Shown: positions 5,401-59,756 of the stretch, piece by piece
How positions within the stretch are numbered: the stretch's first letter is position 1
Layout of the letters: every line of letters starts with the position of its first letter
Assembly (NCBI RefSeq): GCF_004001245.1
Contig: NZ_AP018724.1
Coordinates: 372,001-436,000 of the forward strand
Reading direction: 5' to 3'
Length of the DNA: 64,000 nucleotides
From: Sulfurivermis fontis
GTDB lineage: Bacteria; Pseudomonadota; Gammaproteobacteria; Thiohalomonadales; Thiohalomonadaceae
Program-made: the position numbers and the translations under genes
The notes under the pieces: model-generated
Database searches by the model: none
The model's input: the letters and a program-made list of their open reading frames with translations, nothing else
Told to the model about the DNA's origin: nothing

Positions 5401-5550
5401 TCGTTGCAGCAGGTGGCGGCTGAAGCTATAGGACATCAGACCGGTCAGTGTCAGGGCTACAGTGGCCACGGTCAGTGCCGCTGCCAGAATGCGGTTGGCG
5501 ATGCTGGCACCCATCCAGCGTTCAAGACGTTCCAGCAATGGGGACTTCAT
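2449..5550 (-). CDS. membrane GGDEF/EAL protein with HAMP and two PAS domains
   Basis: 1033 aa. TM1 is about 20-42, a periplasmic sensor region about 43-262, and TM2 about 264-283, followed by HAMP (284-336). PAS1 is about 358-470 and PAS2 about 480-596 with a PAC-like tail. The GGDEF domain is about 603-770 with intact GGDEF at 685-689 and DLDRFK upstream. The EAL domain is about 785-1030, with EVL in place of EAL in the first motif but retaining FTETSL, DDFGTGYS, LKIDQSF and EGVE. Both cyclase and phosphodiesterase activities are therefore possible. The ATG overlaps the stop of the upstream binding-protein gene by 4 bp, which suggests the binding protein delivers its ligand signal to this sensor. 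HDOD and GGDEF genes follow. Confidence 0.93.
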   Translation of the reverse strand: MKSPLLERLERWMGASIANRILAAALTVATVALTLTGLMSYSFSRHLLQRQIEQEHAATAALLTQRLELRLNQIGEEMRALASNTLAVNALLDSAGRDGYLLPFLREFHTASLAPAALCLHDFRGHALACNRPEHELTLSDPAWHHQVMGENRHHTAWLPDGQGLLLALPVFYPGTGQPEGMIVARFSLEQLFSDIFALAGERTARITSDGKNLLACARCSDPPAALLLTRNTLALASPFDGLHLDLWVGEPRNAAFASLTQLTYSYLILAVLILLVVFFAARTIARRITQPLAILSRNAEQVAQNIHHELNTATTGADELGQLSASFRHMLQSLRSAHAELEQRVEERTAALRAQRNDYQVIFDSVPAFIWYFDRNGRVLRANQRAADFLGLRISQLLGKTIFELFPADFAARCQTSNLEVINTGREQVNLVEPLLQPDGALLWLRLDKAPFCDASGAISGVVVFSSDISAEIKAQEHTRLTAKVFDNTLEGIVITDAEMHIVAVNRAFCRITGYEQHEVLGRSARLLASGAQGHVFYRNFWRTIRRQGEWRGELWNRRKGGQVFAEYLSVSTVRDNRGRITHYVGVFSDITTLKRTEQRLAQMAYYDPLTNLPNRALFTERLQQSLTKRKRDPSPLGVMFIDLDRFKTINDTLGHEAGDQLLQQVAKKLRDCLREQDTVARLGGDEFIVLLEKPGDERHVARIAERMLKALARPFHFCGQEVFSGASIGIAMYPADGTDLETLLKNADTAMYRAKNTGRNQYLFYQAEMNAASHARLRLESELRRALRENEFTLLFQPQIDIASGHISGAEVLVRWNHPERGLLPPAEFLAIAEESGAIIDIDRWVLRTACNHYLGWRKEGLKGIHLAVNLSGRHILQRKLSKEIRDILGEHSLPGDWLELEFTETSLIQDSEDVRGTLQDIRSLGVRIAIDDFGTGYSSLLYLKRFPIDVLKIDQSFVRGLPDNAEDISIIDAILAMASRLKLQVVAEGVEQAGQAGYLHANGCPQAQGYYYGRPMAAADFANLYRGQLH

Positions 5551-6713
5551 TGCGCTTGCTCCACGTGAACCAGTGCGCCATCGTGGCGGTAGCGGGCCAT
5601 GAACACATCTGCCGGAGCCAATGCCTCATGGTTGTCGTGGCTGAATGGCCTAGGCCAATGTTTGATCAGGCCGCTGTAATCACGAACCTGTTCCAGGGCG
5701 TCGCGGATCTTGGCGCGATCGGTACTCCCGGCCAGGTTGATGGCGCGCGCCAGGATGTGGGTCAGATCGTAGGCGTGGGCCAGCCCCACCGGTGAAGCTA
5801 TTTGCCCGGCACTGGTAATGCCGTGGTGTTCTTTCAATGCGGCAAGCAGACGTGTCGCCGGCTGCGGACGTGACGGCGTATGAAAACTGTAGGTCTGCAC
5901 CACGGCAAGATCGACTTGCTGCAACGCCGGGCCGGTCATGGCCGGAAAGTCGCCACCGCTGATACCCCAATGGCTGGCGATGGGCAGGCGCTGGTGCTCC
6001 GGCAGTGTTGCCAGTTCGCGTACCAGTATCGAGCCTTCCATCTCGTTGGCGACAAGCACGATACCTTCGGCGCCAGTATCCAGCAGGGCGCGGTAGTGTT
6101 CCAGCATCGATTGGTCACCCCAGTTGTACCAGCGGATACGGGTGACTTCGGGCGCCTGATCGCGCACTGCCTCCAGAGCCTGCAAGCTGCTGCGTCCCCA
6201 GGCCGTGTTGGGTAGCAACACGCCGATACGGCGTATGCCTTTGCGACGCAGATGGTTGAGCATTACAGGCATCGCCCAGCTATCCCGGAGCGAAAGCCGG
6301 AAAACGTAATTGGGTTGATGACCGTTGTCGACGATGTTATCGGCGGCAGCCCAGGGATCGAGGAGCGGGATGCCGAGACGGTGGATAGTTTCGAGCTGCT
6401 CTAGAACCACCGGACTGAATTTGCCGCAGAATACCGCCACCAAGTCTGGCTGGGCGGCGAAATCCTCGATGTTTTCGATACCGCGCGCCGGTACCGAGCG
6501 GTTGTCCTTGATGATGAGTTGCAAGGGGCGGCCACCCAGCACGCCGCCGCTGGCATTGATCTCGGCAACAGCCAGTTCCAGGCCGAGGGCGATGGCTTCA
6601 TCGGAGGTGCTGGTGCGGTGGCTAATTTCGGCATCAAAGCCGATATATACCGGGGCCCCGCCATAGGCGGGTGGGAGGGACAACAACAGGCACAGCAGAC
6701 TCAGTAGGCGCAC
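5547..6713 (-). CDS. periplasmic ABC-type (LivK-like) ligand-binding protein, orphan
   Basis: 388 aa with an N-terminal signal peptide (MRLLSLLCLLLSLPPAYG, probable cleavage near residue 18). A type I periplasmic binding fold follows: GLELAVAEINASGGVLGGRP, PDLVAVFCGKFSPVV, IRRIGVLLPNTAWGRSSLQ. This is the branched-chain amino acid / amide (LivK) family used by ABC importers. No permease or ATPase gene is next to it; instead its stop overlaps the start of a membrane GGDEF/EAL protein (5547-5550). The context argues for a sensory rather than transport role, with the loaded protein touching the periplasmic domain of the GGDEF/EAL partner. The ligand cannot be read from sequence. Confidence 0.88.
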   Translation of the reverse strand: MRLLSLLCLLLSLPPAYGGAPVYIGFDAEISHRTSTSDEAIALGLELAVAEINASGGVLGGRPLQLIIKDNRSVPARGIENIEDFAAQPDLVAVFCGKFSPVVLEQLETIHRLGIPLLDPWAAADNIVDNGHQPNYVFRLSLRDSWAMPVMLNHLRRKGIRRIGVLLPNTAWGRSSLQALEAVRDQAPEVTRIRWYNWGDQSMLEHYRALLDTGAEGIVLVANEMEGSILVRELATLPEHQRLPIASHWGISGGDFPAMTGPALQQVDLAVVQTYSFHTPSRPQPATRLLAALKEHHGITSAGQIASPVGLAHAYDLTHILARAINLAGSTDRAKIRDALEQVRDYSGLIKHWPRPFSHDNHEALAPADVFMARYRHDGALVHVEQAQ

Positions 6714-18691: not shown

Positions 18692-18694
18692 CGA

Positions 18695-18812
18695 GTGACA
18701 AGTGGCAAGTTTCAAGTAGCAAGAAAAACATGGTCTGGGACTCATTGAATGGCCGTGCTGTTGCCACCATTTTCTTCTTTCTCTTGCAACTTGTTACTTG
18801 TAACTTGCCACT
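18695..18812. repeat. family A CAAG-heptad palindrome after hslU
   Basis: The left arm is four heptads of the form NNNCAAG (18695-18723). The right arm is CTTGNNN repeated four times (18783-18810). The centre, about 58 bp, is unrelated to the other copies. The element fills the hslU-DUF971 gap. The arm words match those flanking the S23 gene at 50351-50765. Confidence 0.7.
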
Positions 18813-28761: not shown

Positions 28762-28880
28762 AAAGCGTTAAACGCAAAGACGCAAAGGCCGCCAAGATCG
28801 CAAAGTTTTCGTTGCAGGCGTGCGGTGTGTGGATGGCAAGGCATCAAGGCACAAAACCTTTGCGTCTTTGCGTTTAAGGG
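28762..28880. repeat. family B palindrome before ubiU
   Basis: The left arm has AACGCAAAGACGCAAAGG then CCGCCAAGATCGCAAAG (28771-28805), the right arm CCTTTGCGTCTTTGCGTTTA (about 28856-28876). Arms repeat GCAAAG every 8-9 nt. The centre is about 50 bp. The element lies between the YhcC gene and ubiU, and similar copies follow ubiU and ubiV. Confidence 0.7.
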
Positions 28881-28898
28881 GGTTTCAGGAGGTCAGGT

Positions 28899-29915: not shown

Positions 29916-30078
29916 CAAAGAATTAAACGCGAAGGCGCAAAGTACGCAAAGAGCGCAAAGGGTATGAATGCAATCGTATCGGGGAGGCGGTTGGTTTGGC
30001 GAGGGCTCGTGGGTTGCCGCCATTGCCTGTCTCTCGCATCGAGTTCTTTGCGCCCTTCGCGTTGAAGGCTTTTGACTT
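29916..30078. repeat. family B palindrome between ubiU and ubiV
   Basis: The left arm AAACGCGAAGGCGCAAAG then TACGCAAAGAGCGCAAAGG; the right arm TTCTTTGCGCCCTTCGCG then TTGAAGGCTTTTGACTTTC. The tail TTGAAGGCTTTTGACTT is shared with the element at 31031-31215, so these two copies are close relatives. The centre is about 80 bp. Confidence 0.7.
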
Positions 30079-30093
30079 TCAGGAGTACAAACC

Positions 30094-31035
30094 ATGAAGC
30101 TGGCACTGGGTCCGTTGTTGTATTTCTGGTCGCGCGATGACGTGCTGGCGTTCTATCGCCAGGCGCGCGACTGGCCGGTGGATGTGGTGTATCTCGGTGA
30201 GGTGGTGTGTTCCAAGCGGCGCGGTGTGCGGCTGGAGGACTGGCTTGCCATCGCCGAGGAACTCACGGCGGCCGGCAAGCAGGTGGTGCTGTCCACGCTG
30301 GCGCTCATCGAGGCAGAGTCGGAGCTGCTCACCCTGCGCCGCATTATCGACAACGGCCGCTTTGCGGTGGAGGCGAACGACATGGGCGCGGTGCGCCTCG
30401 CTGCCAACAAGGTGCCCTTCGTCGCCGGTCCGCATCTCAATGCCTACAACTGCGCAACCCTGGGCCTGTTCCGTGACCTCGGCGCGCAGCGCTGGGTGAT
30501 GCCGGTGGAACTGTCGCGCGACACCCTGGCCGCCATCCAGGCCTGCCGTCCGGCGGGATTGGAAACCGAGGTGTTCGCTTTCGGCCGCCTGCCGCTGGCC
30601 TTCTCGGCGCGCTGTTTCACTGCCCGCCACTACAACCTGCCCAAGGACGACTGCCAGCTGCGCTGTGGCGATTTCAGCGACGGTCTGGTGCTCAACTCCC
30701 AGGAGGGCGAGCAGTTCCTGTCCATGAACGGTATCCAGACCCAATCGGCGGCCACCTGCAATCTCATCGGTGTGGTGTCGGAACTGAAGGAACTCAACGT
30801 CGAGGTGCTGCGCCTGTCGCCGCAGTCGCGCCACATGGACAAGATTGTCGGCGCCTTCCGCGCCGTCATCGACGGCACGCAAACGCCGCAACAGGGTATC
30901 GATGCCCTGCGGGGGCTCACCCGCGGTGAACCCTGCAACGGCTACTGGTACGGCGGCGCCGGACTGGCCTGGCTCGATCAGGGCGAGGTACGCGAGGCGC
31001 GGGCGCAGTCGGGGGATAAGAAACAAAGGTGTTAA
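30094..31035 (+). CDS. ubiV: UbiV, partner of UbiU (U32 family)
   Basis: 313 aa. MKLALGPLLYFWSRDDVLAF and DVVYLGEVVCSKRRGVRLED are typical. Cluster cysteines are visible at VVCSKRR, AFSARCFTARHY, DDCQLRCGDFSDG and SAATCNLIG. It works with UbiU in anaerobic ubiquinone synthesis. The last codons run into the start of a family B repeat (AAGAAACAAAGGTGTTAAAC). ubiT lies convergently just downstream. Confidence 0.93.
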   Translation: MKLALGPLLYFWSRDDVLAFYRQARDWPVDVVYLGEVVCSKRRGVRLEDWLAIAEELTAAGKQVVLSTLALIEAESELLTLRRIIDNGRFAVEANDMGAVRLAANKVPFVAGPHLNAYNCATLGLFRDLGAQRWVMPVELSRDTLAAIQACRPAGLETEVFAFGRLPLAFSARCFTARHYNLPKDDCQLRCGDFSDGLVLNSQEGEQFLSMNGIQTQSAATCNLIGVVSELKELNVEVLRLSPQSRHMDKIVGAFRAVIDGTQTPQQGIDALRGLTRGEPCNGYWYGGAGLAWLDQGEVREARAQSGDKKQRC

Positions 31036-31215
31036 ACGCAAAGACGCGAAGGGCGCAAAGAACGCGAAGGTTATCTGCAGCTTGTTGTGGGAGCCCGGCT
31101 ATGCCGGGTGATGACAGCCTGTCCGAGCGCCGCTGTCGCCCGATAAATCGGGCTCCCACAACAAAACTTTGCGCTCTTTGCGCCCTTCGCGTCTTTGCGT
31201 TGAAGGCTTTTGACT
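31031..31215. repeat. family B palindrome with a nested REP pair, between ubiV and ubiT
   Basis: Outer arms: GTTAAACGCAAAGACGCGAA on the left; GCGCCCTTCGCGTCTTTGCG on the right, then TTGAAGGCTTTTGACTT. Inside (31086-31162) is a second, unrelated inverted pair: TGTGGGAGCCCGGCTATGCC and, facing it, CGATAAATCGGGCTCCCACA. The inner pair looks like two inverted REPs of the TGTRGGAGC type (a BIME). One palindromic element has been inserted into another. Confidence 0.7.
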
Positions 31216-42679: not shown

Positions 42680-43705
42680 ATGGATATGCAGACAGCCATC
42701 CGCGCCGTCACCGAGCGCCGCGACCTCAGCTCCGAGCAAATGACGGCGGCGATGCGCCTGATCATGACCGGCGAGGCGACTCCGGCGCAGATCGGCGGCT
42801 TCCTCGTCGGCCTGCGCATGAAGGGCGAGACGGTGGACGAGATCGCCGCGGCCGCCGGCGTGATGCGCGAACTGGCGACGCGGGTAGAGCTGGAGCTGCC
42901 GCATCTGGTGGATACCTGCGGCACCGGCGGCGATGGCGCCCACACCTTCAACATCTCGACCACGGCGGCCTTTGTGGTGGCCGCGGCGGGCGCCAACGTG
43001 GCCAAGCACGGCAACCGCTCGGTATCGAGCAAATCCGGCAGCGCCGACGTGCTGGAGGCGGCCGGCGTCAACCTGGAGCTGACGCCGCAGCAGGTCGGTG
43101 AATGCGTCCGCCAGGCCGGTGTCGGTTTCATGTTCGCCCCCAAGCATCACAGCGCCATGAAGCACGCCATCGGCCCGCGCCGCGAAATGGGCGTGCGCAC
43201 CATCTTCAATGTGCTGGGGCCGCTGACCAATCCGGCCGGCGCGCCGCATCAGGTGCTCGGCGTCTACAGCGGCGAGTGGCTGGAGCCGCTGGCCCAGGTG
43301 CTGGGCCGGCTGGGCTCGAAGCATGTGCTCATCGTGCATGCCGAGGACGGCATGGATGAAATCAGCATCAGTGCGCCGACCCAGGTGGCGGAATGGCAGC
43401 ACGGCACGCTCAAGCGCTATGCCATCACGCCGGAGCAGTTCGGCATGGTGCGCGCCGATGTGAAGCGCCTGGCCGTGGAGTTGCCGGAACAGAGTCTCGG
43501 CATCATGCGTGATGTGCTCGCTGACAAGGCGGGGCCGGCGCGCGATATCGTGGTGCTCAATGCGGGCGCCGCCATCTATGCGGCCGACCTGGCGGCCACG
43601 CTGGAAGAGGGCGTGCAGAAGGCGCGTGAAGTGATCGCCAGCGGCGCCGCACGCGAGCGGCTCGACCGCCTGGTGCAGGTCAGCAACAGCTTCAAGGCGG
43701 CATGA
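42680..43705 (+). CDS. trpD: anthranilate phosphoribosyltransferase
   Basis: 341 aa. The ribosyltransferase motifs [57 protein letters not shown] and [17 protein letters not shown] are present. It joins anthranilate to PRPP in step two of tryptophan synthesis. It is followed by trpC with a 1-bp gap, so the two are cotranscribed. Confidence 0.97.
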
Positions 43706-43706
43706 C

Positions 43707-44507
43707 GTGAGCGATACCCCGGATATCCTGAAGAAAATCCTGCAGCGCAAGGCCGAAGAGATCGCGGCGCGGCGCAGTCGGGTGAGTATCGCGGAGTTGC
43801 GCGACCGCGTGCCGGCGGCGCCGGCGCTGCGCCCCTTCGTCGGCGCGCTGCGCGCCAAGCTGGCCGCCGGGCTGCCGGCGGTGATCGCCGAGGTGAAGAA
43901 GGCCTCGCCCAGCAAAGGCCTGTTGCGTCCCGATTTCCACCCGGCGGAGATCGCGGCCTCCTACGAACGCGGCGGTGCAGCCTGCCTGTCGGTACTGACC
44001 GATATCGATTTCTTTCAGGGCAGCGACGAATACCTGCAACAGGCCCGCGCGGCCTGTGGGCTGCCGGTGATCCGCAAGGACTTCATCATCGACACTTACC
44101 AGGTGGTGGAGGCGCGTGCCATCGGTGCCGACTGCATCCTGCTCATCGCCGCTGCATTGAGCGACGGACAGATGGCCGAGCTGACCGCCGCCGCGACGGA
44201 GCTGGGGCTGGATGTGCTGGTGGAGGTGCACGACGGGCAGGAACTGGAGCGCATGCTGCGCCTGCCGCTGCCCCTGGTCGGCATCAACAACCGCAATCTG
44301 CGCACCTTCGAGGTTTCCCTGCAAACCACCCTCGACCTGTTGGCGCAGATCCCGGAGGATCGCATCGTGGTCACCGAGAGCGGCATCCTGAGCCGCGACG
44401 ACGTGACGCTGATGCGCCGTCACGGTGTGCACAGTTTTCTGGTGGGGGAGGCGTTTATGCGCGCGGCGGAGCCGGGCGAGAAGCTGGCGGAGTTGTTTAA
44501 TACTTAG
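43707..44507 (+). CDS. trpC: indole-3-glycerol phosphate synthase
   Basis: 266 aa from GTG ([20 protein letters not shown]). It is a TIM barrel with [19 protein letters not shown] (catalytic lysine), [57 protein letters not shown] and [12 protein letters not shown]. It is monofunctional: no TrpF part is fused. The stop is followed immediately by a family A repeat. Confidence 0.97.
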
Positions 44508-44588
44508 CTACAAGTTTCAAGTTGCAAGTGACACGCTAAAGGCAACACCCTCTTCCTTGCCACTTGCCACTTGCCACTTGCCACTTAC
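44508..44588. repeat. family A CAAG-heptad palindrome between trpC and crp
   Basis: The left arm is CTACAAG TTTCAAG TTGCAAG TGACA (44508-44532); the right arm is CTTGCCA repeated four times (44555-44586). The core holds TAAAGGCAACACCCTCTT, almost identical to the core of the element at 46676-46758. The crp stop codon (44585-44587) lies inside the right arm. Confidence 0.75.
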
Positions 44589-45220
44589 CGCGCACCGAAC
44601 ACGACGATGGTCTTGCCCTTCACCGAGATCAGGCCCTGTTCTTCCAGGGTCTTGAGCACACGCCCGGCCATTTCGCGCGAGCAGCCGACGATGCGGCCGA
44701 TCTCCTGGCGGGTGATGCGGATCTGCATGCCGTCGGGATGGGTCATGGCATCCGGCTCCCTGGTGAGGTCGAGCAGGGTGCGGGCGATGCGGCCGGTGAC
44801 GTCGAGGAAGGCCAGGTCGCCCACCTTGCGGCTGGTGGTGCGCAGGCGTGCCGCCATCTGGCTGGACAGGGCGAAGAGGATCTCCGGGTCGTCGTGCGCC
44901 ACCTGGCGGAAGCGGGTGTAGCTGATCTCCGCCAGTTCGCACTCGGTGCGCGAGCGCACCCAGGCGCTGCGGCCGGCGCTTTCGTCGAACAGGCCCATCT
45001 CGCCGAAGAAGTCGCCGGGGTTGAGGTAGGCGAGCACGATCTCGCGGCCGTTGTCGTCCTCGATCAACACCGTCATGCCGCCCTTGATGACGTAATACAG
45101 CACGTCGGGCTTGTCGCCGGCACGGATGATGGTGCTCTTGGAGGCGTATTTGCGGCGGTGGCAATGGACCAGGAAGCGATCGATCGCCGGGTTGCCGGTG
45201 CTCAGCGCCTTGGTCGTCAT
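44585..45220 (-). CDS. crp: CRP (cAMP receptor protein) family regulator
   Basis: 211 aa. The cAMP pocket is [20 protein letters not shown] then [18 protein letters not shown], very close to E. coli CRP. The DNA-binding helix is [20 protein letters not shown] then [10 protein letters not shown], where R, E and R contact TGTGA. It lacks the N-terminal cysteines of FNR, so it is not the factor expected at the FNR-type boxes. Its gene end has been invaded by a family A repeat. Confidence 0.95.
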
Positions 45221-45331
45221 GGTGACCCCTTGTCCCTAGGAAATTAGTGGGTGTTACGTATACCAGCCTGCCTGGAGCCAGGCAAGCGGGTAGAATCGCA
45301 CCAGAATAACCCAGCTTGGAGGAAAGTTAAA

Positions 45332-45748
45332 ATGAAGGCGCGTATCAAATGGGTGGAGCAGGCCACCTTCCTGGGCGAGACGGAGAGCGGCCACGCGGTG
45401 GTGATGGACGGCCCGCCCGACCACGGCGGCCGCAATCTGGGGCCGCGGCCGATGGAGATGCTGCTGCTCGGCATGGGCGGTTGCACCTCCTTCGATGTGG
45501 TCAGCATCCTGAAGAAGGCGCGCCAGCCCATCCGTGACTGCGTGGCCGAGATCACCGCCGAGCGTGCCGACACCGACCCCAAGGTTTTCACCCGGATCCA
45601 CGTCCACTTCATCGTCACCGGCCAGGACCTGAAGGAGGCCCAGGTCAAGCGAGCGGTCGAGCTGTCGGCAGAGAAGTACTGCTCCGCCTCCATCATGCTG
45701 GGCAAGGTGGCCGAGATCACCCACGACTACGAGATCGTGGCAGGCTGA
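45332..45748 (+). CDS. OsmC family protein (YhfA-like)
   Basis: 138 aa starting MKARIKWVEQATFLGETESG after TTGGAGGAAAG. OsmC/Ohr fold marks are GRNLGPRPMEMLLLGMGGCT then SFDVVSILKKARQPI, and the second conserved cysteine in SAEKYCSASIMLGKVAEI. OsmC proteins reduce organic peroxides through this cysteine pair; YhfA-type members have unproven activity. It is divergent from crp, an arrangement also seen in E. coli (yhfA-crp). Confidence 0.92.
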   Translation: MKARIKWVEQATFLGETESGHAVVMDGPPDHGGRNLGPRPMEMLLLGMGGCTSFDVVSILKKARQPIRDCVAEITAERADTDPKVFTRIHVHFIVTGQDLKEAQVKRAVELSAEKYCSASIMLGKVAEITHDYEIVAG

Positions 45749-45853
45749 GGGAAATTTTATCCCCCTTTTGCGGCTTAATCAGGGATAATGCGCGTCCCCG
45801 CCCGGCCAGGATGCCGGCGGGGACTTCCTGACTGTACTGCGGAGGTGCATGAA

Positions 45854-46675
45854 TTGCCTGACTCTCTCGGAACCAAGCTCAAGCTGCACGGCTTCAACAA
45901 CCTGACCAAGACGCTGAGCTTCAACATCTACGACATCTGCTACACGCAGACCGATGCCCAGCAGCGCGAGTACATCGAGTACATCGATGAGGAATACAAC
46001 GCCGAGCGCCTGACCAACATCCTCACCGATGTGGCCGATATCATCGGCGCCAACATCCTCAACATCGCGCGCCAGGATTACGATCCGCAGGGCGCCAGCG
46101 TCACCATGCTGATCTCCGAGGAGCCGGTGCTGTCGCAAGACCGCTCCAACACCGAATCGCCCGGTCCGCTGCTGCCGGACGCCGTGGTGGCGCATCTGGA
46201 CAAGAGCCACATCACCGTACACACCTATCCGGAGAGCCATCCGGACAACGGCATCAGCACCTTCCGCGCCGACATCGATGTCTCCACCTGCGGCCGCATC
46301 TCGCCGCTGAAGGCGCTGAACTATCTGATCCACAGCTTCGAGTCCGACATCGTCACCATGGACTACCGCGTGCGCGGCTTCACCCGCGACGTCAAGGGGC
46401 GCAAGTATTTCATCGACCACAAGATCAACTCGATCCAGAATTACATCGCCCGCGATACGCTGGATCGCTACCAGATGATCGACGTCAACGTCTATCAGGA
46501 GAACATCTTCCACACCAAGATGATGCTCAAGGAGTTCGACCTGGATAACTACCTGTTCGGTGTCCAGGCGCGCGACCTCGACCCGGCGGATTCGCGCACC
46601 ATCCGCCGGCGTCTGCAACGGGAAATGCTGGAGATCTTCTATGGACGGAATCTGACGAAGATTCCCAAAAAATAG
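45854..46675 (+). CDS. speD: S-adenosylmethionine decarboxylase proenzyme
   Basis: 273 aa from TTG 45854, eight bases after GGAGG; an upstream in-frame Met was rejected as it lacks this site and homology. [20 protein letters not shown] is the family start. Self-cleavage between K117 and S118 ([17 protein letters not shown]) makes the pyruvoyl cofactor. The cysteine in [15 protein letters not shown] is the proton donor. It supplies decarboxylated SAM for spermidine. A family A repeat follows at once. Confidence 0.96.
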
Positions 46676-46758
46676 TTCCAAGTACCAAGTTGCAAGTGAC
46701 AAGCCAAAGACAACACCCTCTTTTCTTGTAACTTGTAACTTGTAACTTGTAACTTGTT
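46676..46758. repeat. family A CAAG-heptad palindrome between speD and coq7
   Basis: The left arm is TTCCAAG TACCAAG TTGCAAG TGACAAG; the right arm is CTTGTAA repeated four times then CTTG. The core CAAAGACAACACCCTCTTTT matches that of 44508-44588. It fills the whole gap between convergent genes and reaches the coq7 stop codon. Confidence 0.75.
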
Positions 46759-47397
46759 TTATATCCAATAGGTCGTCCGCGTCATTACCTTCGACACCAG
46801 ACCCATCAGCCTCTTCACCGGCTCCGGCAGCGGGGCGCCGCCGGCATGCAGGGCGAGGGTGGCGTGGTGCGCCTCGTCCTCCTTCATCTGCTCGAGGATG
46901 GCGCGGCTTTTCTGATCGTGCTCCGGCAATTGCGCCAGATGCTCGTCCAGGTGCCGCACCACCTGATGTTCGGTCTCCACCACGAAGCCCAGGCTCCACT
47001 TGTCGCCGGCGGCACCGGCCAGGGCGCCGATGGCCAACGAACCCGCATACCACAGCGGGTTGAGGTAACTGACGTGGGTGCCCATTTCCTTCGCGCGGCG
47101 CTCGCACCATTCCAGGTGATCGTTTTCCTCCAGTGCGGCGCGCTCCATCTTGTCGCGCACCTCCGGCAGGCGCGCGGTGAGTGCCTGGCCCTGATACAGC
47201 CCCTGCGCCGACACCTCGCCGGCGTGGTTGATGCGCATCAGCCGTCCGGCCAGCACGCGCTCGGCCTCGCTCAGCTCCGCCTCGGGCAGGTGCTCCGCCG
47301 GATTGGGGCGTTCGGTCAGCACCGGCCGTCCGAACACGGTACGCAGGGCGGTATCGAAGTTGAGAAACAGCTTGTCGATGGGGGAGTAGTTGCGCAT
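46759..47397 (-). CDS. coq7: Coq7-type demethoxyubiquinone monooxygenase
   Basis: 212 aa starting [20 protein letters not shown]; a longer in-frame start lies in the neighbouring repeat and was rejected. It is a di-iron four-helix protein with metal ligands in [42 protein letters not shown] and [13 protein letters not shown]. It uses O2 to hydroxylate the ring at C6 in the last hydroxylation of ubiquinone synthesis, replacing UbiF. It is the aerobic counterpart of UbiUV in this window. Confidence 0.95.
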
Positions 47398-47402
47398 GAA
47401 GG

Positions 47403-47516
47403 CTAAGTTACAAGTTTCAAGTGACAAGTTGCAAGATAGGGACAATCTTGCTTGTCACTTGTCACTTGTCACTTGTCACTTGTCACTTGTCACTTGTCAC
47501 TTGTCACTTGTTTGAC
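47403..47516. repeat. family A palindrome with a long tandem heptad run
   Basis: The left arm is four NNNCAAG heptads (47407-47434). The right arm is CTTG then TTGTCAC units repeated about nine times (47448-47513), the longest run in the window. The 3' end of glcF lies in this run: its last residues (QVTSDK and stop) are encoded by repeat units. Length variation by slippage is expected. Confidence 0.8.
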
Positions 47517-48746
47517 CAGCAGCGACACCGGATGCACTACCTCCACCGCCAGCCCCGCCGCGCGCAGTCCGGCCGCGAGATGCATGGCGCAGCCGATGTT
47601 GGCGCTGGCCAGCCACTGCGGTTGCAGTTCCGCCACGGCGGCGACCTTGTCGGCCCGCAGGGTATCGGCCTCGGCCGGATGGTCGACCAGATAGCTGCCG
47701 GCGGCGCCGCAGCAGCGCTCGTTGTGCGGCAACTCGACGACCTCCAGCTGCGGGATGTGGCGCAGCAGGGTGTACAGCGCCTGCTGCCCGCGCAGCACAT
47801 TGCGCAGGGTACAGGACTCATGCACCGCTACCTTCTGCGGCAACGGCCGCAGCACCAGAGTTTCGGGCCAGTCCAGTCCGGCGAGAAACGCGTTGATGTC
47901 GATTACGCGACGGGCAAAGCCGGCGGCGCGCTCGTCCTCCAGCAGGTCGTCGTATTCATGCAGCAGGGCGCCGCAGCCGCTGGCCACGCTGAGGATGGCC
48001 TCGGCCTCGGCGGGGAAGGCCGCCAGATTCTGCTGTGCCAGGTGCCGTGCCGTCGCGCCGTCGCCCTGCTGCACATGCAACGCACCGCAGCAGCCTTGCT
48101 GTGACGGGATATGCACCGCATACCCCAGCGCACTCAACAGCCTGCGGGCATCGTGCAGCAAGCGGCGCTGCAGCAGGTCGCCGGTGCAGCCGGTGAACAG
48201 CGCCACCTGCCCGCGCTGTACGCCCTGTGCCGGCGTAAATTCCGGCAGGGACGGCGCGGCGCCGCCCTCCGGCAGGCCCTGCAGCAACCGTCCGACGGCA
48301 CTGTCGCCGAGCAGATGCAGCCGCTGCGTGATCTTTTGCAGGCCGCTGGCCTGGAACAGGTGCAATGCGCCGCCCAGCAGCTTGCGCCGCGCCGGTGTCG
48401 CCAGCGTGTCGGCAAGGCGGGAATGTTCCTGCCGATATAAATGTTCGCGTGTGTTGCGCAGCAGGCGGCCGTAGGGCACCAGGGAGGGGCACATCGCCTC
48501 GCAGGCGCGGCAGCCCAGGCAACGATCGAGGTGGCCAAGCAGCCCGGCATCCGCCTCCAGCTGGCCGCGCGCGACCGCCAGCATCAGGGAGATGCGCCCG
48601 CGCGGCGATTCCGCCTCGTTATGGCTCAGACCATAGGTGGGACAGTGGGGCAGACACATGCCGCACAGCACGCAGCGATCAGCGTCGGCCAGGATCTGGG
48701 ATAGCAAGTTCAATGTGGGGGTCACGGCAGGAAAACAGCGCCCCAT
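47490..48746 (-). CDS. glcF: glycolate oxidase iron-sulfur subunit
   Basis: 418 aa. Two 4Fe-4S motifs are near the N-terminus (CVLCGMCLPHCPTYGL and CLGCRACEAMCPSLVPYG). Two CCG domains follow (TGC...QQGCCGALH and ESCTLRN...NERCCGAAGSY), the HdrD/GlcF layout. With GlcD and GlcE (not in the window) it oxidises glycolate to glyoxylate and passes electrons to quinone; gph at 38401 would supply glycolate. The start may be M at 48746 or GTG at 48725. The C-terminal tail is repeat-encoded. Confidence 0.92.
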   Translation of the reverse strand: MGRCFPAVTPTLNLLSQILADADRCVLCGMCLPHCPTYGLSHNEAESPRGRISLMLAVARGQLEADAGLLGHLDRCLGCRACEAMCPSLVPYGRLLRNTREHLYRQEHSRLADTLATPARRKLLGGALHLFQASGLQKITQRLHLLGDSAVGRLLQGLPEGGAAPSLPEFTPAQGVQRGQVALFTGCTGDLLQRRLLHDARRLLSALGYAVHIPSQQGCCGALHVQQGDGATARHLAQQNLAAFPAEAEAILSVASGCGALLHEYDDLLEDERAAGFARRVIDINAFLAGLDWPETLVLRPLPQKVAVHESCTLRNVLRGQQALYTLLRHIPQLEVVELPHNERCCGAAGSYLVDHPAEADTLRADKVAAVAELQPQWLASANIGCAMHLAAGLRAAGLAVEVVHPVSLLVKQVTSDK

Positions 48747-48786
48747 GGTAGACTACGGGCCGGTTCAATAACAGTGGCGGGCGGAC

Positions 48787-49092
48787 ATGTCCTACTACAA
48801 ACACCACGTTTTCTTCTGCACCAACCAGCGCGAAGGCAAGGCCTGTTGCCAGGACCACAACGCCCAGGCGCTGCGCGACTACGCCAAGGACAAGGTGAAG
48901 CAACTGGGCCTCGCCGGTCCCGGCGGTGTGCGCATCAACAGCGCCGGCTGTCTCGACCGCTGCAGCGAGGGGCCGGTGATCGTCATCTATCCGCAGGAAA
49001 CCTGGTACACCTACGTCGACCGCGAAGACATCGATGAGATCATCGAACAGCACCTGCAGCACGACCGCGTGGTCGAACGGCTGAAAATCTGA
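48787..49092 (+). CDS. thioredoxin-like [2Fe-2S] ferredoxin
   Basis: 101 aa. MSYYKHHVFFCTNQREGKAC then CQDHN gives Cys11, Cys20 and Cys21; VRINSAGCLDRCSEGPVIVI gives Cys55 and Cys59. The spacing fits a C-x8-C ... C-x3-C thioredoxin-like 2Fe-2S site (Cys11, Cys20, Cys55, Cys59). The end GPVIVIYPQETWYTYVDRED is typical. The electron partner is unknown. It is divergent from glcF by about 40 bp. Confidence 0.92.
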   Translation: MSYYKHHVFFCTNQREGKACCQDHNAQALRDYAKDKVKQLGLAGPGGVRINSAGCLDRCSEGPVIVIYPQETWYTYVDREDIDEIIEQHLQHDRVVERLKI

Positions 49093-49140
49093 CACCGCCC
49101 CCTCCCGGCCTCCCACGGTGTGGGGGAGGAGAAAAAACCC
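49093..49140. repeat. family E CCCTCCC hairpin fragment
   Basis: CCCCCTCCCGGCCTCCCACG then GTGTGGGGGAGGAG: one hairpin of the family E unit found in full at 59431-59756. It lies just after the ferredoxin stop. Confidence 0.6.
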
Positions 49141-49178
49141 TCCGGGTTATCCCCCGAATTCCCCTACAAACCCCGGTG

Positions 49179-49206
49179 TTGACGTGCCCGGAAATATCAG
49201 TATATT
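49179..49206 (+). promoter_or_regulatory. sigma70-like promoter before a candidate sRNA
   Basis: TTGACG (49179-49184) and TATATT (49201-49206) with 16 bp between them. No gene start follows within 280 bp, but a strong terminator does at 49284-49311, so the product would be a short transcript. Confidence 0.5.
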
Positions 49207-49212
49207 AGCCAC

Positions 49213-49311
49213 TACTGATTTGCTGCTGCCCCCCAATGCGCAGCAAGTCTGTGACTCCTCCACCCTCCTTTGGTGGTTTTATTGGCCCGGCCACCCCGCC
49301 GGGCCTTTTTT
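49213..49311 (+). ncRNA. candidate small RNA, about 100 nt, upstream of rplM
   Basis: Predicted from a promoter-terminator pair with no open frame. It contains a hairpin TTGCTGC ... GCAGCAA whose loop holds CCCCCC, then ACTCCTCCACCCTCC, a pyrimidine-rich stretch complementary to Shine-Dalgarno sequences, then CCACC/GGTGG pairing, then the terminator stem. This C-rich, anti-SD layout resembles trans-acting sRNAs. A leader of rplM is the alternative, but the terminator would have to be read through. Confidence 0.4.
49284..49311 (+). terminator. rho-independent terminator upstream of rplM
   Basis: GGCCCGGC and GCCGGGCC flank a six-base loop, followed by TTTTTT. It is a strong intrinsic terminator for the transcript starting near 49213, or for read-through from the ferredoxin gene. 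Confidence 0.85.
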
Positions 49312-49363
49312 ATTTCAGAACTTGGAAAAACGGCACGGGGGCGCTAGGATCGCCGCCCGCAAG

Positions 49364-49425
49364 CGGTCCGGATCCTTTCGTACCTCGTACCTTGCCCCTC
49401 GTACCTGTCTGCTTGGGGGTTGTAT
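49364..49425. repeat. half of a family C element upstream of rplM
   Basis: CGTACCTCGTACCTTGCCCC then TCGTACCTGTCT: heptads of the CCTCGTA type as in the right arms at 9096 and 60820. No clear left arm is present. The rest of 49312-49492 shows only the rplM leader. Confidence 0.5.
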
Positions 49426-49492
49426 CCCGCCCGCGTTTTCTATAAGATTCCGCCTCTTTTCGTGACACCCGCTCTTTCTGGAGTGATTTGGG

Positions 49493-49930
49493 ATGATTGG
49501 TACAAAGACTTTTAGCGCGAAGCCCGCCGAAGTGAAGCGCGACTGGTACGTCGTCGACGCTGCCGGCAAGACCCTCGGCCGCCTCGCTTCTGAGATTGCT
49601 TCGCGCCTGCGCGGCAAGCACAAGGCCGTATACACCCCGCATGTGGATACCGGCGATTACATCATTGTGGTCAATGCCGAGAAGGTGCACGTCACCGGCC
49701 GCAAGGCGACCGACAAGATGTACTACCACCACACCGGCTTCCCCGGCGGCATCAAGGAAATCAGCTTCGACAAGCTGATCGACAAGGCCCCCGAGCGCGT
49801 GCTGGAAATCGCCGTCAAGGGCATGCTGCCGAAGAACTCCCTCGGCCGCGCCATGTTCAGCAAGCTGAAGGTATACGCCGGCCCTGAGCACGCCCACGCC
49901 GCCCAGCAGCCGAAGCCGCTGGACATCTGA
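49493..49930 (+). CDS. rplM: 50S ribosomal protein L13
   Basis: 145 aa. [60 protein letters not shown] and [20 protein letters not shown] are diagnostic. It is an early-assembly 23S rRNA-binding protein. rpsI follows 19 bp downstream, the universal pairing. Confidence 0.99.
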
Positions 49931-49949
49931 GTTTTTCAGGACAAGCACC

Positions 49950-50345
49950 ATGGCACAGACCCAAGCTATCAACACCACCGGCCGCCGCAAGACCTCTTCC
50001 GCGCGTGCCTTCCTGGCCCCCGGCAAGGGCGCCATCACCGTCAACGGCCGTGACCTCGACGCCTATTTTGGCCGCGTCACCGCCCGTATGGTCGTGCGCC
50101 AGCCGCTGGAAGCCGTTGAGCTGACCGACAAGTTCGACATCAAGGTTACCGTCGTTGGCGGCGGCACCACCGGCCAGGCCGGCGCCATCCGCCACGCCAT
50201 CGCCCGTGCCCTGGTGGGTTACGACGAAGGCCTGCGTGGCGCCCTGCGCCGCGGCAACTTCCTGACCCGCGATGCCCGCGAAGTCGAGCGCAAGAAGGTC
50301 GGCCTGCACAAGGCGCGCAAGCGTCCGCAGTACTCGAAGCGTTAA
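49950..50345 (+). CDS. rpsI: 30S ribosomal protein S9
   Basis: 131 aa. [40 protein letters not shown] and the basic tail ending [11 protein letters not shown], which reaches the P-site tRNA, are all present. The stop is followed within 6 bp by the left arm of a family A element carrying the S23 gene; the usual next gene (petABC or sspA) is absent. Confidence 0.99.
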
Positions 50346-50350
50346 CAGCA

Positions 50351-50765
50351 GTTACAAGTTTCAAGTCGCAAGTTTCAAGAAAGCATGGATGCTTTCGAGA
50401 AGTTGGAAGTCTGGAAGCGGAGCGCGCGGCTATCTGTGGAGTTGTACAAGCAACTTTCAGGATGCCGCGATGCCGGGTTCAAGGATCAAATCACCCGCGC
50501 TGCTTTGTCGGTACCTTCCAATATCGCAGAGGGCTACGAGCGGGATTCTGGGCGTGAATTTGCCCGCTTCCTGCGCATTGCCAAGGGATCGTGTGGTGAA
50601 CTGCGGACGCAGTTGTACATCGGTGCTGAGGCAGGGTTCATGGATAAGCCCGTGGCGCTCGACATGGTTGCCGAGGCAACCGAGATCGCAAGAATGCTCC
50701 AGGGTCTGATCGCGCGCTGCGCAGCGAACTGACTCTTGCAACTTGTCACTTGCAACTTGTCACTC
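50351..50765 (+). mobile_element. family A element carrying an S23 four-helix-bundle gene
   Basis: The left arm TTACAAG TTTCAAG TCGCAAG TTTCAAG (50351-50379) directly abuts the S23 start; the right arm CTTGCAA CTTGTCA twice (50735-50763) begins 3 bp after its stop. The arms are the same heptads seen in four gene-less elements (18695, 44508, 46676, 47403). This is the only copy with a gene and may be the parent element. No target duplication is obvious. The transposition mechanism is unknown. Confidence 0.6.
50385..50732 (+). CDS. S23 / TIGR02436 four-helix-bundle protein
   Basis: 115 aa. MDAFEKLEVWKRSARLSVEL, then ITRAALSVPSNIAEGYERDS, GREFARFLRIAKGSCGELRT and MLQGLIARC match the 23S rRNA intervening-sequence protein family, a relative of Avd proteins of diversity-generating retroelements. 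It forms pentamers that bind nucleic acid. Here it is not inside 23S rRNA but sits between CAAG-heptad arms, between rpsI and tRNA-Gln. It may bind the heptad hairpins. Confidence 0.92.
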   Translation: MDAFEKLEVWKRSARLSVELYKQLSGCRDAGFKDQITRAALSVPSNIAEGYERDSGREFARFLRIAKGSCGELRTQLYIGAEAGFMDKPVALDMVAEATEIARMLQGLIARCAAN

Positions 50766-50773
50766 GGTTTTCT

Positions 50774-50849
50774 TGGGGCGTAGCTCAACTGGCAGAGCGA
50801 CGGACTCTGACTCCGTAGGTTCTAGGTTCGACCCCTAGCGCCCCAGCCA
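50774..50849 (+). tRNA. tRNA-Gln (anticodon CUG)
   Basis: 76 nt cloverleaf with encoded CCA. The acceptor TGGGGCG pairs with CGCCCCA. The anticodon stem ACGGA/TCCGT encloses loop CTCTGAC with anticodon CTG. The T arm CTAGG TTCGACC CCTAG is perfect. It reads CAG codons. A terminator follows 3 nt after CCA. Confidence 0.97.
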
Positions 50850-50851
50850 AA

Positions 50852-50894
50852 TCAAAAAGGCCCTTCCGCAAGGAAGGGCCTTTTTGTTTGTGCG
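50852..50894 (+). terminator. rho-independent terminator of tRNA-Gln
   Basis: AAAAAGGCCCTTCC, loop GCAA, GGAAGGGCCTTTTT. The stem is near perfect and flanked by A and T runs, so it also works on the minus strand for the HigA end. Confidence 0.9.
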
Positions 50895-50907
50895 GCCAAT
50901 AGACCGA

Positions 50908-50936
50908 ATGTAGGGCGGGCTTCAGCCCGCCAACTC
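50908..50936 (+). repeat. REP-like hairpin
   Basis: TGTAGGGCGGGCTTCAGCCC then GCCA: a TGTAGG head followed by a GGCGGGCTTCAGCCCGCC hairpin. It abuts the end of the convergent higA gene. Confidence 0.6.
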
Positions 50937-50937
50937 C

Positions 50938-51288
50938 TCAAGCTGCGCGGGGAGAAACTTCCTTTTCGATAGCGGCAAGCTCCACCCGCCGGGCGTTTTC
51001 CAATTCGTAATCCTTTTGCAATCCCATCCAGAATTCGGCGGTAGTGCCGAAATAGCGCGCCAGGCGCAGTGCCGTGTCCGCGGTCACTGAGCGCGATCCG
51101 TTAACGATGCCGCTGATCCGGTTGGCGGGTACATGCAGCGCACCAGCCAGGGCATTGGCGGAAAGCCCCAGCGGCGTCATGAATTCATGCAGCAGAATCT
51201 CCCCTGGGTGAACTGCGGGCAGTTTGTCCCCCGCTTCAACCAGATCGGAAAAGTCCATCTTGTTGAGGTCTTCACGCCGTATGGTCAT
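50938..51288 (-). CDS. higA: HigA-type antitoxin (XRE helix-turn-helix)
   Basis: 116 aa. The core is VHPGEILLHEFMTPLGLSAN then ALAGALHVPANRISGIVNGS and VTADTALRLARYFGTTAEFW, the HigA/VapI HTH. The tail is charged. It binds its operator and the toxin encoded just upstream (10 bp). Toxin-first order is characteristic of higBA. Confidence 0.95.
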   Translation of the reverse strand: MTIRREDLNKMDFSDLVEAGDKLPAVHPGEILLHEFMTPLGLSANALAGALHVPANRISGIVNGSRSVTADTALRLARYFGTTAEFWMGLQKDYELENARRVELAAIEKEVSPRAA

Positions 51289-51298
51289 ATCTTGTACC

Positions 51299-51580
51299 TC
51301 AATGGTAATCCACTATCTCCACATCCCAGGCGTTGCCGTTTTCAAAGCGAAAACATATACGCCACTGCTCGTTGATGCGTATGCTCCAGCGGCCGTTCCG
51401 ATCTCCCTTCAATGCCTCGAAACGGTTACCCGGCGGGATACGTAACTCATCAACACGACATACCTGTTCCAATTGCGCCAGCTTGCGGCGGGCCGGTTGC
51501 CTGATATCAGGGGGATAGCGCTTCACGCGCTCACCCATAAACAAGGCTGCCGTTTCCTTGTCGCGGAAGGACGTGATCAT
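51299..51580 (-). CDS. higB: HigB-type RelE-superfamily toxin
   Basis: 93 aa. MITSFRDKETAALFMGERVK, PARRKLAQLEQVCRVDELRI, PPGNRFEALKGDRNGRWSIR and INEQWRICFRFENGNAWDVE fit HigB. Basic residues around RWSIRINEQWRI would cut mRNA on the ribosome. It is the first gene of the operon. Confidence 0.95.
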   Translation of the reverse strand: MITSFRDKETAALFMGERVKRYPPDIRQPARRKLAQLEQVCRVDELRIPPGNRFEALKGDRNGRWSIRINEQWRICFRFENGNAWDVEIVDYH

Positions 51581-53317: not shown

Positions 53318-53516
53318 GAGTTTGGGGTCAGAGTAACAACCCCAATTCGTTCCTAGCCGATTTGTCTTTCCCGGTGGGATGGGAGTTTGGGGAGTTTGGG
53401 GTCAGGGGAGTTTGGGGTCAGAGTAACAACCCCAATGGAGTTTGGGGTCAGAGGAGTTTGGGGTCAGAGTAACAACCCCAATTCGTTCCTAGCCGATTTG
53501 TCTTTCCCGGTGGGAT
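53318..53516 (+). repeat. array of RAYT-associated TTTGGGGTCAG repeats
   Basis: A 63-bp unit (53318-53380) starting GAGTTTGGGGTCAGAGTAAC recurs exactly at 53454-53516. Between the two lie three more copies of TTTGGGGTCAG and a shorter TTTGGGGAG, all in the same orientation. The same word forms the terminal inverted repeats of the RAYT element at 54031-54841. No gene is visible inside. Confidence 0.85.
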
Positions 53517-59430: not shown

Positions 59431-59756
59431 CGCCCCCTCCCGACCTCCCCCACGGTGTGGGGGAGGAGGGAATACTCCCTCCCCATGGGATGGGGAGGGT
59501 TGGGGAGGGGGGCGTCTAAAGGCACGCCCCCTCCCGACCTCCCCCACGGTGTGGGGGAGGAGGGAATACTCCCTCCCCATGGGATGGGGAGGGTTGGGGA
59601 GGGGGCGTCTAAAGGCACGCCCCCTCCCGGCCTCCCCCACGGTGTGGGGGAGGAGGGAATACTCCCTCCCCATGGGATGGGGAGGGTTGGGGAGGGGGCG
59701 TCTAAAGGCACGCCCCCCTCCCGGCCTCCCCCATATTCATGGGGGAGGAGATAACA
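59431..59756. repeat. tandem array of 3.5 family E units
   Basis: Units begin at 59431, 59525, 59618 and 59711 (period 93-94 bp). Each full unit has CCTCCCCCACGGTGTGGGGG (hairpin 1), GGAATA, then CCCTCCCCATGGGATGGGGA (hairpin 2), GGGTTGGGGAGGGGG, and a GCGTCTAAAGGCAC spacer. The last is cut after hairpin 1, where the loop differs (ATATTCAT). The 389-bp gap between hsp20 and cbpA holds nothing else. Confidence 0.92.

Follow-up and report, generated by a model that had tools for sequence, protein, structure and literature searches.

The window analysed here, a stretch of 64,000 nucleotides (G000:C1:372001-436000), belongs to the one-contig, 3.25-Mb genome of Sulfurivermis fontis. It holds a gene for a 115-aa four-helix-bundle protein of the S23 (23S_rRNA_IVP) family, at 50385-50732 on the forward strand. 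The gene lies between what we take, from reading the ORF, to be rpsI (uS9; 49950-50345) and a tRNA gene (50774-50846), and hence outside the 23S rRNA gene; at gathering scores Rfam found nothing besides this tRNA in 43500-51500. In profile searches the protein matched PF05635 (E 7.9e-32; 110.1 bits, with a cut-off of 33.8) and TIGR02436 (E 1.1e-31). PF05635 was its only Pfam match, and it was itself the single PF05635 match in the genome. The predicted monomer has four helices (pLDDT 96.4), so that both marks of the family, a profile score above the curated cut-off and the four-helix fold, are present. The nearest folds to the model were 2gsc (E 1.2e-5) and 2rld, followed by the Avd structure 4dwl, which like two chains of diversity-generating retroelement ribonucleoproteins (8ube and 8ub7) was among the weaker matches (E 0.04-0.15). 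Both 2gsc and 2rld contain five chains, which is a count in the solved structures rather than proof of a pentamer in solution. The small window protein is probably ring-forming.

The S23 gene is enclosed by two arms. The 5' arm (50350-50379, forward strand) carries five AG dinucleotides, 7 nt apart, at 50350, 50357, 50364, 50371 and 50378, and the 3' arm (50735-50764, forward strand) carries, in inverted heptads, five CT dinucleotides at the same spacing (50735, 50742, 50749, 50756 and 50763). We refer to these invariant dinucleotides as anchors. The first-pass annotation had described NNNCAAG heptads before the start codon and CTTGNNN heptads after the stop. Indeed, four CAAG units with exact 7-nt spacing occupy 50355-50379, ending 5 nt before the ATG, and four CTTG units occupy 50735-50759, starting 2 nt past the stop rather than the 3 nt given there. 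The predicted RNA fold pairs the left arm with the right over 24 of its 32 bases.

Four gene-less elements with CAAG arms, also listed by the first-pass annotation, were found at the places it gave; no strand is assigned to them. They are 18694-18812 (AG arm 18694-18723, CT arm 18783-18812), 44506-44588 (four AG and five CT anchors), 46674-46758 (five AG and five CT anchors) and 47406-47516 (five AG anchors and a long right arm with nine CTTG). The element at 44506 shares its first AG with the TAG stop codon that ends ORF 43707-44507, and the one at 46674 does likewise with the TAG stop that ends ORF 45788-46675. Two further repeats of the window are a 93-bp unit repeated 3.2 times (59431-59733) and a 46-bp unit present twice (53391-53482), with GGAGTTTGGGGTCA.

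The CAAG arm layout is far beyond chance in the whole genome: CAAGNNNCAAGNNNCAAG gave 376 matches (overlapping, several per array), and the reversed-pattern control gave 0. We collected 37 stretches from the matches listed (the first ~100, + strand) together with the window. Of the 44 left arms in them, 37 had a right-hand partner within 450 bp and 7 had none. The loops between the arms are 5-70 bp, except for one of 212 bp and that filled by the S23 gene (355). Four full CAAG units were the mode (24/37 left and 20/37 right arms), and runs of exactly five AG, with sharp ends, were seen in 20/37 left and 22/37 right arms. Around the four-unit arms, an AG was found one step outward in 22/24 left and 19/20 right arms, two steps outward in 1/24 and 0/20, and one step inward in 3/24 and 0/20, which means that the typical arm starts and finishes on AG and holds five of them. 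The variable triplets between anchors were mostly TGA, TTA, TTG, TGG and TTT, in no order shared between arms. The gene-less elements fold well as RNA compared with letter-shuffled sequence (mean z of -6.2 for 34 elements). Despite this folding, the in-register identity of the variable triplets between the two arms was the same as after shuffling (0.557 vs 0.555); we thus rejected the arms as a strictly paired stem, and exact pairing is not what chiefly constrains them.

Association of S23 genes with period-7 arrays

We analysed other S23 genes, initially judging arms by reading, in a family sample of 20 genomes, 10 of them with a PF05635 match. Most S23 genes had heptad arms, the heptad varying from gene to gene (GGGGCTA, GGTTCAA, GGGAAAT, GTGCTAA, GAAAACT and GGGAGCA were seen). 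CAAG, taken at first as the mark of S23 arms, is therefore a local word; what is common is the 7-nt spacing of a repeated anchor. On reading, no clear arrays were present at L003 (full length), L018 (truncated) and three weak matches (L010, L020 and L022), and at L014 and L016 the downstream arm was in direct orientation. Most of 17 stretches in a plasmid set (cyanobacterial and other), also read by eye, had repeat arms, with none at L104; 14 of the 17 were counted for AG runs.

For the larger samples we scored the best four-unit window within 120 bp of the gene, with the 99th percentile of shuffled flanks, reset for each sample, as threshold. This measure was fixed after a first look at 80 loci, and the second and third samples were obtained afterwards. 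The first sample comprised the best 80 of at least 585 relatives on genome contigs from many phyla, 78 of them usable. A period-7 array lay on either side of the S23 gene at 63/78 loci (upstream 52, downstream 48, both 37), against 67/398 (both 11) for other ORFs at least 700 bp away in the same loci. At the S23 genes, period 8 was found at 12/78 loci and periods 5, 6 and 9-11 at no more than 6/78 each. The control genes, which come from the same loci as the S23 elements, are not repeat-free (67/398 at period 7, 46/398 at period 9, 25/398 at period 6).

The second sample came from 276 genomes of the class, 54 of which had a match (66 matches). The 49 best besides those of G000 and G257 were taken, which excludes G257 and the 15 weakest, and 3 were too short, leaving 46 loci. 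Period-7 arrays were present at 43/46 (upstream 40, downstream 35, both 32) and other periods at 0-3/46, compared with 8/144 (both 0) for shifted flanks of the same loci. The third sample, from viral contigs, contained 36 loci, of which 30 were usable after removal of exact duplicates (near copies such as L273 and L275 were kept), and 24/30 had period-7 arrays. The loci failing the measure numbered 15/78, 3/46 (L149, L161 and L168) and 6/30. As a negative control we used genes of another family, GxxExxY, whose flanks scored 0/23 at period 7. The association of S23 genes with heptads is thus real and general. Its absence in other genomes had been set beforehand as the finding that would refute the first-pass interpretation, and the link is strong in all three samples. 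Ordinary flanking repeats or a repeat hot spot are ruled out by the controls with other genes, shifted flanks, swapped arms and other periods. The S23 gene was co-directional with both neighbours at 52/85 loci, compared with 49% of 343 control triples, a difference too small to be used as a sign of read-through preference.

The arms mirror each other. The upstream arm matched the reverse complement of the downstream arm (local score of at least 14) at 35/78 S23 loci, in contrast to 2/398 control genes and 8/771 swapped pairs; the direct orientation reached this score at 5/78 S23 loci. The anchor invariant over four units was AG in 32/54 upstream arrays and CT in 28/50 downstream arrays.

For each of 306 S23 arms from 78, 46 and 29 loci, we determined how often in succession a single dinucleotide recurred at period 7, and kept the longest such run. 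The run was two in 37 arms, three in 51, four in 44, five in 106, six in 21, seven in 13 and longer in 34, and the peak at five appeared in every sample (48, 33 and 25 arms). Counting AG only, in arms with mostly differing spacers, gave three in 30, four in 22, five in 46 and six in 9 arms; a single peak was absent from the class sample (three in 15, four in 12, five in 15). The arms thus prefer five anchors. This number equals the chain number of the solved S23 structures and strengthens the earlier idea of a five-fold protein on repeated 7-nt sites, while five anchors at 7 nt also add up to ~30 nt, and a constraint on the hairpin could fix that length as well.

Some S23 arms have other spacings: 8 nt at L054, L096 and L292, 9 nt at L064 and 6 nt at L075. 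These loci offer natural spacing variants for probing what the S23 protein may read. Among 11 arms of non-7 period judged clear by eye, five held exactly five anchors (L075, L091 right, L096 right, L292 left and L305 right), four held more (L054, L064 right, L096 left and L292 right) and two held four (L076 left and L305 left). Arrays of 14, 45 or ~95 units were also seen (L189 right arm, with 45, L202 left arm, and L050 at 5133-5801), indicating that arrays are able to expand after insertion.

Cognate copies, occupied junctions and a possible second helper

Gene-less relatives share the heptads of the resident S23 gene in G000 and in a second genome, G126. Class-wide counts (276 genomes) covered three successive AGTTCTG units and the four-unit CAAGT array. 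The former occurred in 2/276 genomes, G126 (49 matches) and G137 (3), and both hold an S23 gene with AGTTCTG arms (L123 and L128). Since the three matches in G137 are its S23 arm, spread is shown by G126 only, where the places among the matches listed are at least 20 kb from the S23 gene. Four-unit CAAGT arrays were found in 8/54 genomes with S23 and 6/222 without (p 0.0015); among the matches listed, five of these six had a single array and G280 had several. The reversed CAAGT pattern was found elsewhere in 6/276 genomes (G072, G092, G147, G192 and G236 with S23; G039 without). The reversed heptad is, however, a heptad itself, which makes it an unclean control in genomes other than G000, where it gave 0.

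The 80 loci of the first look contained 63 distant period-7 arrays, as against 13 at period 6, 13 at period 8 and 19 at period 9. A match to the arms of their own S23 gene (score of at least 14) was found for 22/63, compared with 169/4977 comparisons with other loci, and the own locus ranked first for 15/63. The remaining 41/63 had no match to their own arms; part of the arrays, not all, are thus cognate. Heptad types also group together on the S23 tree (52 changes against a mean of 64.4 after shuffling, 0/1000 shuffles as low; 2/1000 with all rows and 0/1000 with the genome_contigs rows), though the tree has few columns for its rows and near relatives add to the grouping. In the class rows, the base before AG gave a weak signal (31/1000) and the base after AG none (800/1000).

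Insertion polymorphism of S23 elements was directly visible in Nostoc sp. ATCC 53789, where three paralogous plasmid operons align. In pNsp_a an S23 element of 418 bp occupies one gene junction, in pNsp_c a different S23 element occupies the next junction, and in pNsp_b neither is filled, its S23 genes being ~2 kb away. A MITE (non-autonomous DNA transposon) would have a target-site duplication and a parent with a transposase gene; there was no clear target-site duplication at the two Nostoc insertions, and the parent element encodes S23 alone. On cyanobacterial plasmids, S23 genes were also found between cas6 and cas4 (L105 and L109) and between cmr2 and cmr3 (L116, with repeats nearer 8 nt). 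The S23 family (PF05635) is named in the legend of a CRISPR association screen (PMC10910872), and S23 genes inside CRISPR-Cas operons may explain its presence there.

We searched for empty sites, as the first-pass annotation had proposed, at three of the gene-less sites of the window and at the S23 site in four congeners (G014-G017). No clean empty site was found for the three gene-less elements, the clean ones being those of S23 elements on the Nostoc plasmids. What occupied the three sites was either an element of this type whose units differed, a different heptad type, or a member of a different palindrome family; a heptad element was missing at one of these sites in G017 and in G014. The site of 44506-44588 holds other elements in G014 and G016, that of 46674-46758 holds, in G014, G016 and G017, CAAG elements that differ in their units or in how many there are, and that of 47406-47516 holds another palindrome in G017. 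In relatives (L236-L240, G014-G017), palindromes of CGTAGGAGCC and TAGGAGCGAAT types were seen at the sites of 44506-44588 and 47406-47516. The occurrence of other palindrome families at the same intergenic sites implies that the junctions are shared landing places. At the S23 site itself, G015 has no S23 gene between rpsI and the tRNA gene, and G014 and G016 have S23 arms with other heptads, though both genomes hold CAAG elements.

The GxxExxY genes (PF13366, PDDEXK_3), present in 19/140 class genomes and without a match in G000, have a similar anatomy. For the best 23 of 31 matches, inverted arms of 8/9-nt units (score of at least 14) were found at 15/23, vs 0/42 shifted controls and 29/506 swapped pairs. 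The periods were 8 in 8/23, 9 in 4/23 and 6 in 7/23. In the window, palindromic elements of period 9 with CGCAAAG units (28766-28885, 29916-30070 and 31026-31210) have their best or nearly best matches in the GxxExxY arms of L260 and L263. Four GxxExxY elements from different genomes (L243, L249, L260 and L263) lie directly before what is apparently the same gene start, as if this junction were a favoured GxxExxY site; from its sequence, the gene is presumably trpG/pabA-like.

Proposed spread of the S23 element and its rivals

We propose that the S23 gene and its two arms form one mobile cassette, that S23 reads the arms, and that the gene-less copies are non-autonomous derivatives. We give this reading a probability of roughly 0.6. 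The gene and both arms would move as a single unit, and the gene-less palindromes would be copies that retain only what S23 reads, landing between genes, operon interiors included. A ring of five S23 subunits would read one arm, one subunit per anchor (AG here). A rough estimate for a ring of five four-helix bundles gives an outer girth of ~190 A, or ~37 A per subunit, which fits seven extended nucleotides. On duplex DNA, seven base pairs cover two thirds of a turn, which is ill-suited to a flat ring. Most likely, then, the arm would be single-stranded when read, either RNA or DNA, and wound around the ring; that the variable positions are unmatched in register fits independent reading of the two arms. 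We give reading of an arm by the ring about even odds, and place a requirement for S23 in the spread of the copies at a similar level. How copies would be joined into intergenic gaps is a weaker point. The cassette leaves no space for a gene other than S23, and the genome has no reverse transcriptase match; joining would therefore probably fall to host enzymes acting on a single-stranded, ring-bound hairpin copy, an idea that we put forward quite tentatively.

The arms may instead be an RNA device. The S23 message would then be protected, terminated or set apart by a hairpin in the transcript, or the hairpin would be a substrate of RNase III, and the gene-less copies would act as REP-like stabilisers. 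The strong predicted folding and the pairing of the window arms described above speak for this, as does the 28-bp terminal stem of the Coxiella intervening sequence, which is cut by RNase III (PMC4990558). In register, however, the variable positions agree no better than shuffled ones, a stem needs neither tandem periodicity nor a preference for five anchors, and the tie to S23 genes is left unexplained, so that we consider an RNA device unlikely. To a like degree we doubt that arm length sets the count, some machine needing arms of ~30 nt and the number of units following from their length. On reading, the GxxExxY arms with 8/9-nt units hold ~3-5 units and are likewise near 30 nt; the 11 clear S23 arms of other periods, in contrast, do not keep to a constant 30 nt, although this argument is weak. 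The published view of heptamers, in which polymerase slippage in intergenic DNA makes the arrays (discussed in PMC4692102) and S23 genes merely happen to be located there, agrees with the existence of arrays as long as the right arm of L189. Simple slippage would, however, lead to no tie with a particular gene, whereas a strong tie was found. Arrays are mostly missing beside other genes and in shifted flanks, the arms mirror each other and abut the gene, and heptad type follows the S23 tree. We regard slippage as the source to be highly improbable.

Movement by a transposase or a reverse transcriptase was considered as well. A Y1 (REP-associated) transposase could move the hairpins, with S23 as passenger or regulator. 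G000 has two Y1_Tnp matches, and Y1_Tnp is found in 45/54 genomes with S23 vs 145/222 without (p 0.013), a weak association that may reflect genome size or lifestyle. However, 9/54 S23 genomes lack Y1_Tnp and 6 lack both Y1_Tnp and RVT_1 (drafts may hide some), and the window cassette has no room for a further gene; we rate this explanation slightly below the RNA device. A reverse transcriptase, with S23 in the role that Avd has in diversity-generating retroelements, appears less likely again. The Avd-like fold matches speak for it; against it, the complete genome G000 has no RVT_1 match and RVT_1 is not associated with S23 (25/54 genomes with S23 vs 81/222 without, p 0.21). We therefore rejected a resident reverse transcriptase as the mover, while a helper of this kind may have existed in the past.

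The recurring layout around S23 genes and the dozens of gene-less copies in this genome point to S23 elements as an unrecognised kind of mobile DNA. The first-pass interpretation is partly supported. It had called the locus REPtron-like with an unrelated helper; the anatomy, one helper gene and many gene-less palindromes with its heptads, bears this out, while binding of the arms by S23, and a part of S23 in moving them or in processing their RNA, are putative. A wider reading, which we hold with somewhat less than even confidence, is that of a class with a five-fold code. Here the five anchors of each end would match the subunits of the ring, and the elements would be the source of many heptamer repeats (in Xanthomonas, the STRRs of Nostoc, and Beggiatoaceae) and of rRNA intervening sequences, with GxxExxY as a second helper of the same layout. 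We know of no function for S23 proteins, long a gap, and of no accepted cause for bacterial heptamers. Were they parts of a single system, a repeat class found across many phyla would have a source and a large protein family would gain a substrate. A ring counting its own repeats would, if true, mark the ends of an enzyme-less mobile element in a novel manner. If two unrelated helpers, S23 and GxxExxY, share one layout, the arrangement would be a general principle and no mere curiosity, and the likeness of S23 to Avd would bear on the origin of diversity-generating retroelements.

Relation to known systems

Among the closest known systems are the intervening sequences (IVS) of 23S rRNA genes. 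Both they and the window element have an S23 gene between terminal inverted repeats. The window element differs in lying between rpsI and a tRNA gene instead of inside a 23S rRNA gene, in its five regular anchors per arm and in its many gene-less copies. The Coxiella burnetii IVS, called a selfish element, has tandem heptamers upstream of the S23p start, their number varying between strains, and the 28-bp stem (PMC4990558); there the heptamers figure as a local detail of one species. In the literature that we consulted, in part, these heptamers in one rRNA intervening sequence were the exception, and a general link of S23 to heptads was not found.

Among repeats of 5-11 nt, heptamers are described as the commonest class in most of the bacterial genomes surveyed (PMC4679880). 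Those of Xanthomonas and Nostoc (PMC4692102) and the TAACTGA repeats of Beggiatoaceae (PMC4679880) resemble the S23 arms as dispersed intergenic 7-nt tandem repeats. The former show a preference for four units, with paired inverted arrays in Xanthomonas, and G-quadruplexes or slippage are discussed (PMC4692102); the preference fits the CAAG arms, where five anchors make four full units, without G-runs. For the Beggiatoaceae repeats, a repeat-binding protein was suggested as a possible mobile element (PMC4679880). A word search of both texts for 'S23' and 'four helix' gave nothing. A Nostoc S23 arm (L106), with GGGAGTA/GGGGAGT, resembles the STRRs and has the same 7-nt units. STRRs are heptanucleotide repeats of cyanobacteria that have been used in fingerprinting.

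Diversity-generating retroelements share the fold, that of Avd (4dwl, 8ube and 8ub7), which has an RNA partner in the ribonucleoprotein entries. The likeness of Avd to PF05635 has been noted (PMC10053308). The S23 element, however, has neither a reverse transcriptase nor a template repeat, and three weak PF05635 matches that we labelled Avd-like were, on reading, without heptad arms.

The window element also resembles a REPtron in that its helper gene is flanked by a dispersed palindrome. In REP/RAYT systems, one helper gene is flanked by a palindrome scattered in the genome. The helper here is not a Y1 (HUH) transposase but an unrelated four-helix bundle, in which we know of no catalytic site, and the palindrome is built of tandem heptads. 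For the working principle that we propose, the likeness is to TRAP, a ring of 11 subunits reading (G/U)AG repeats: a ring with one short AG-containing site per subunit. The S23 protein is unrelated to TRAP and differs in its presumed five subunits, its 7-nt spacing and its mobile-element context, and the likeness is thus one of analogy only.
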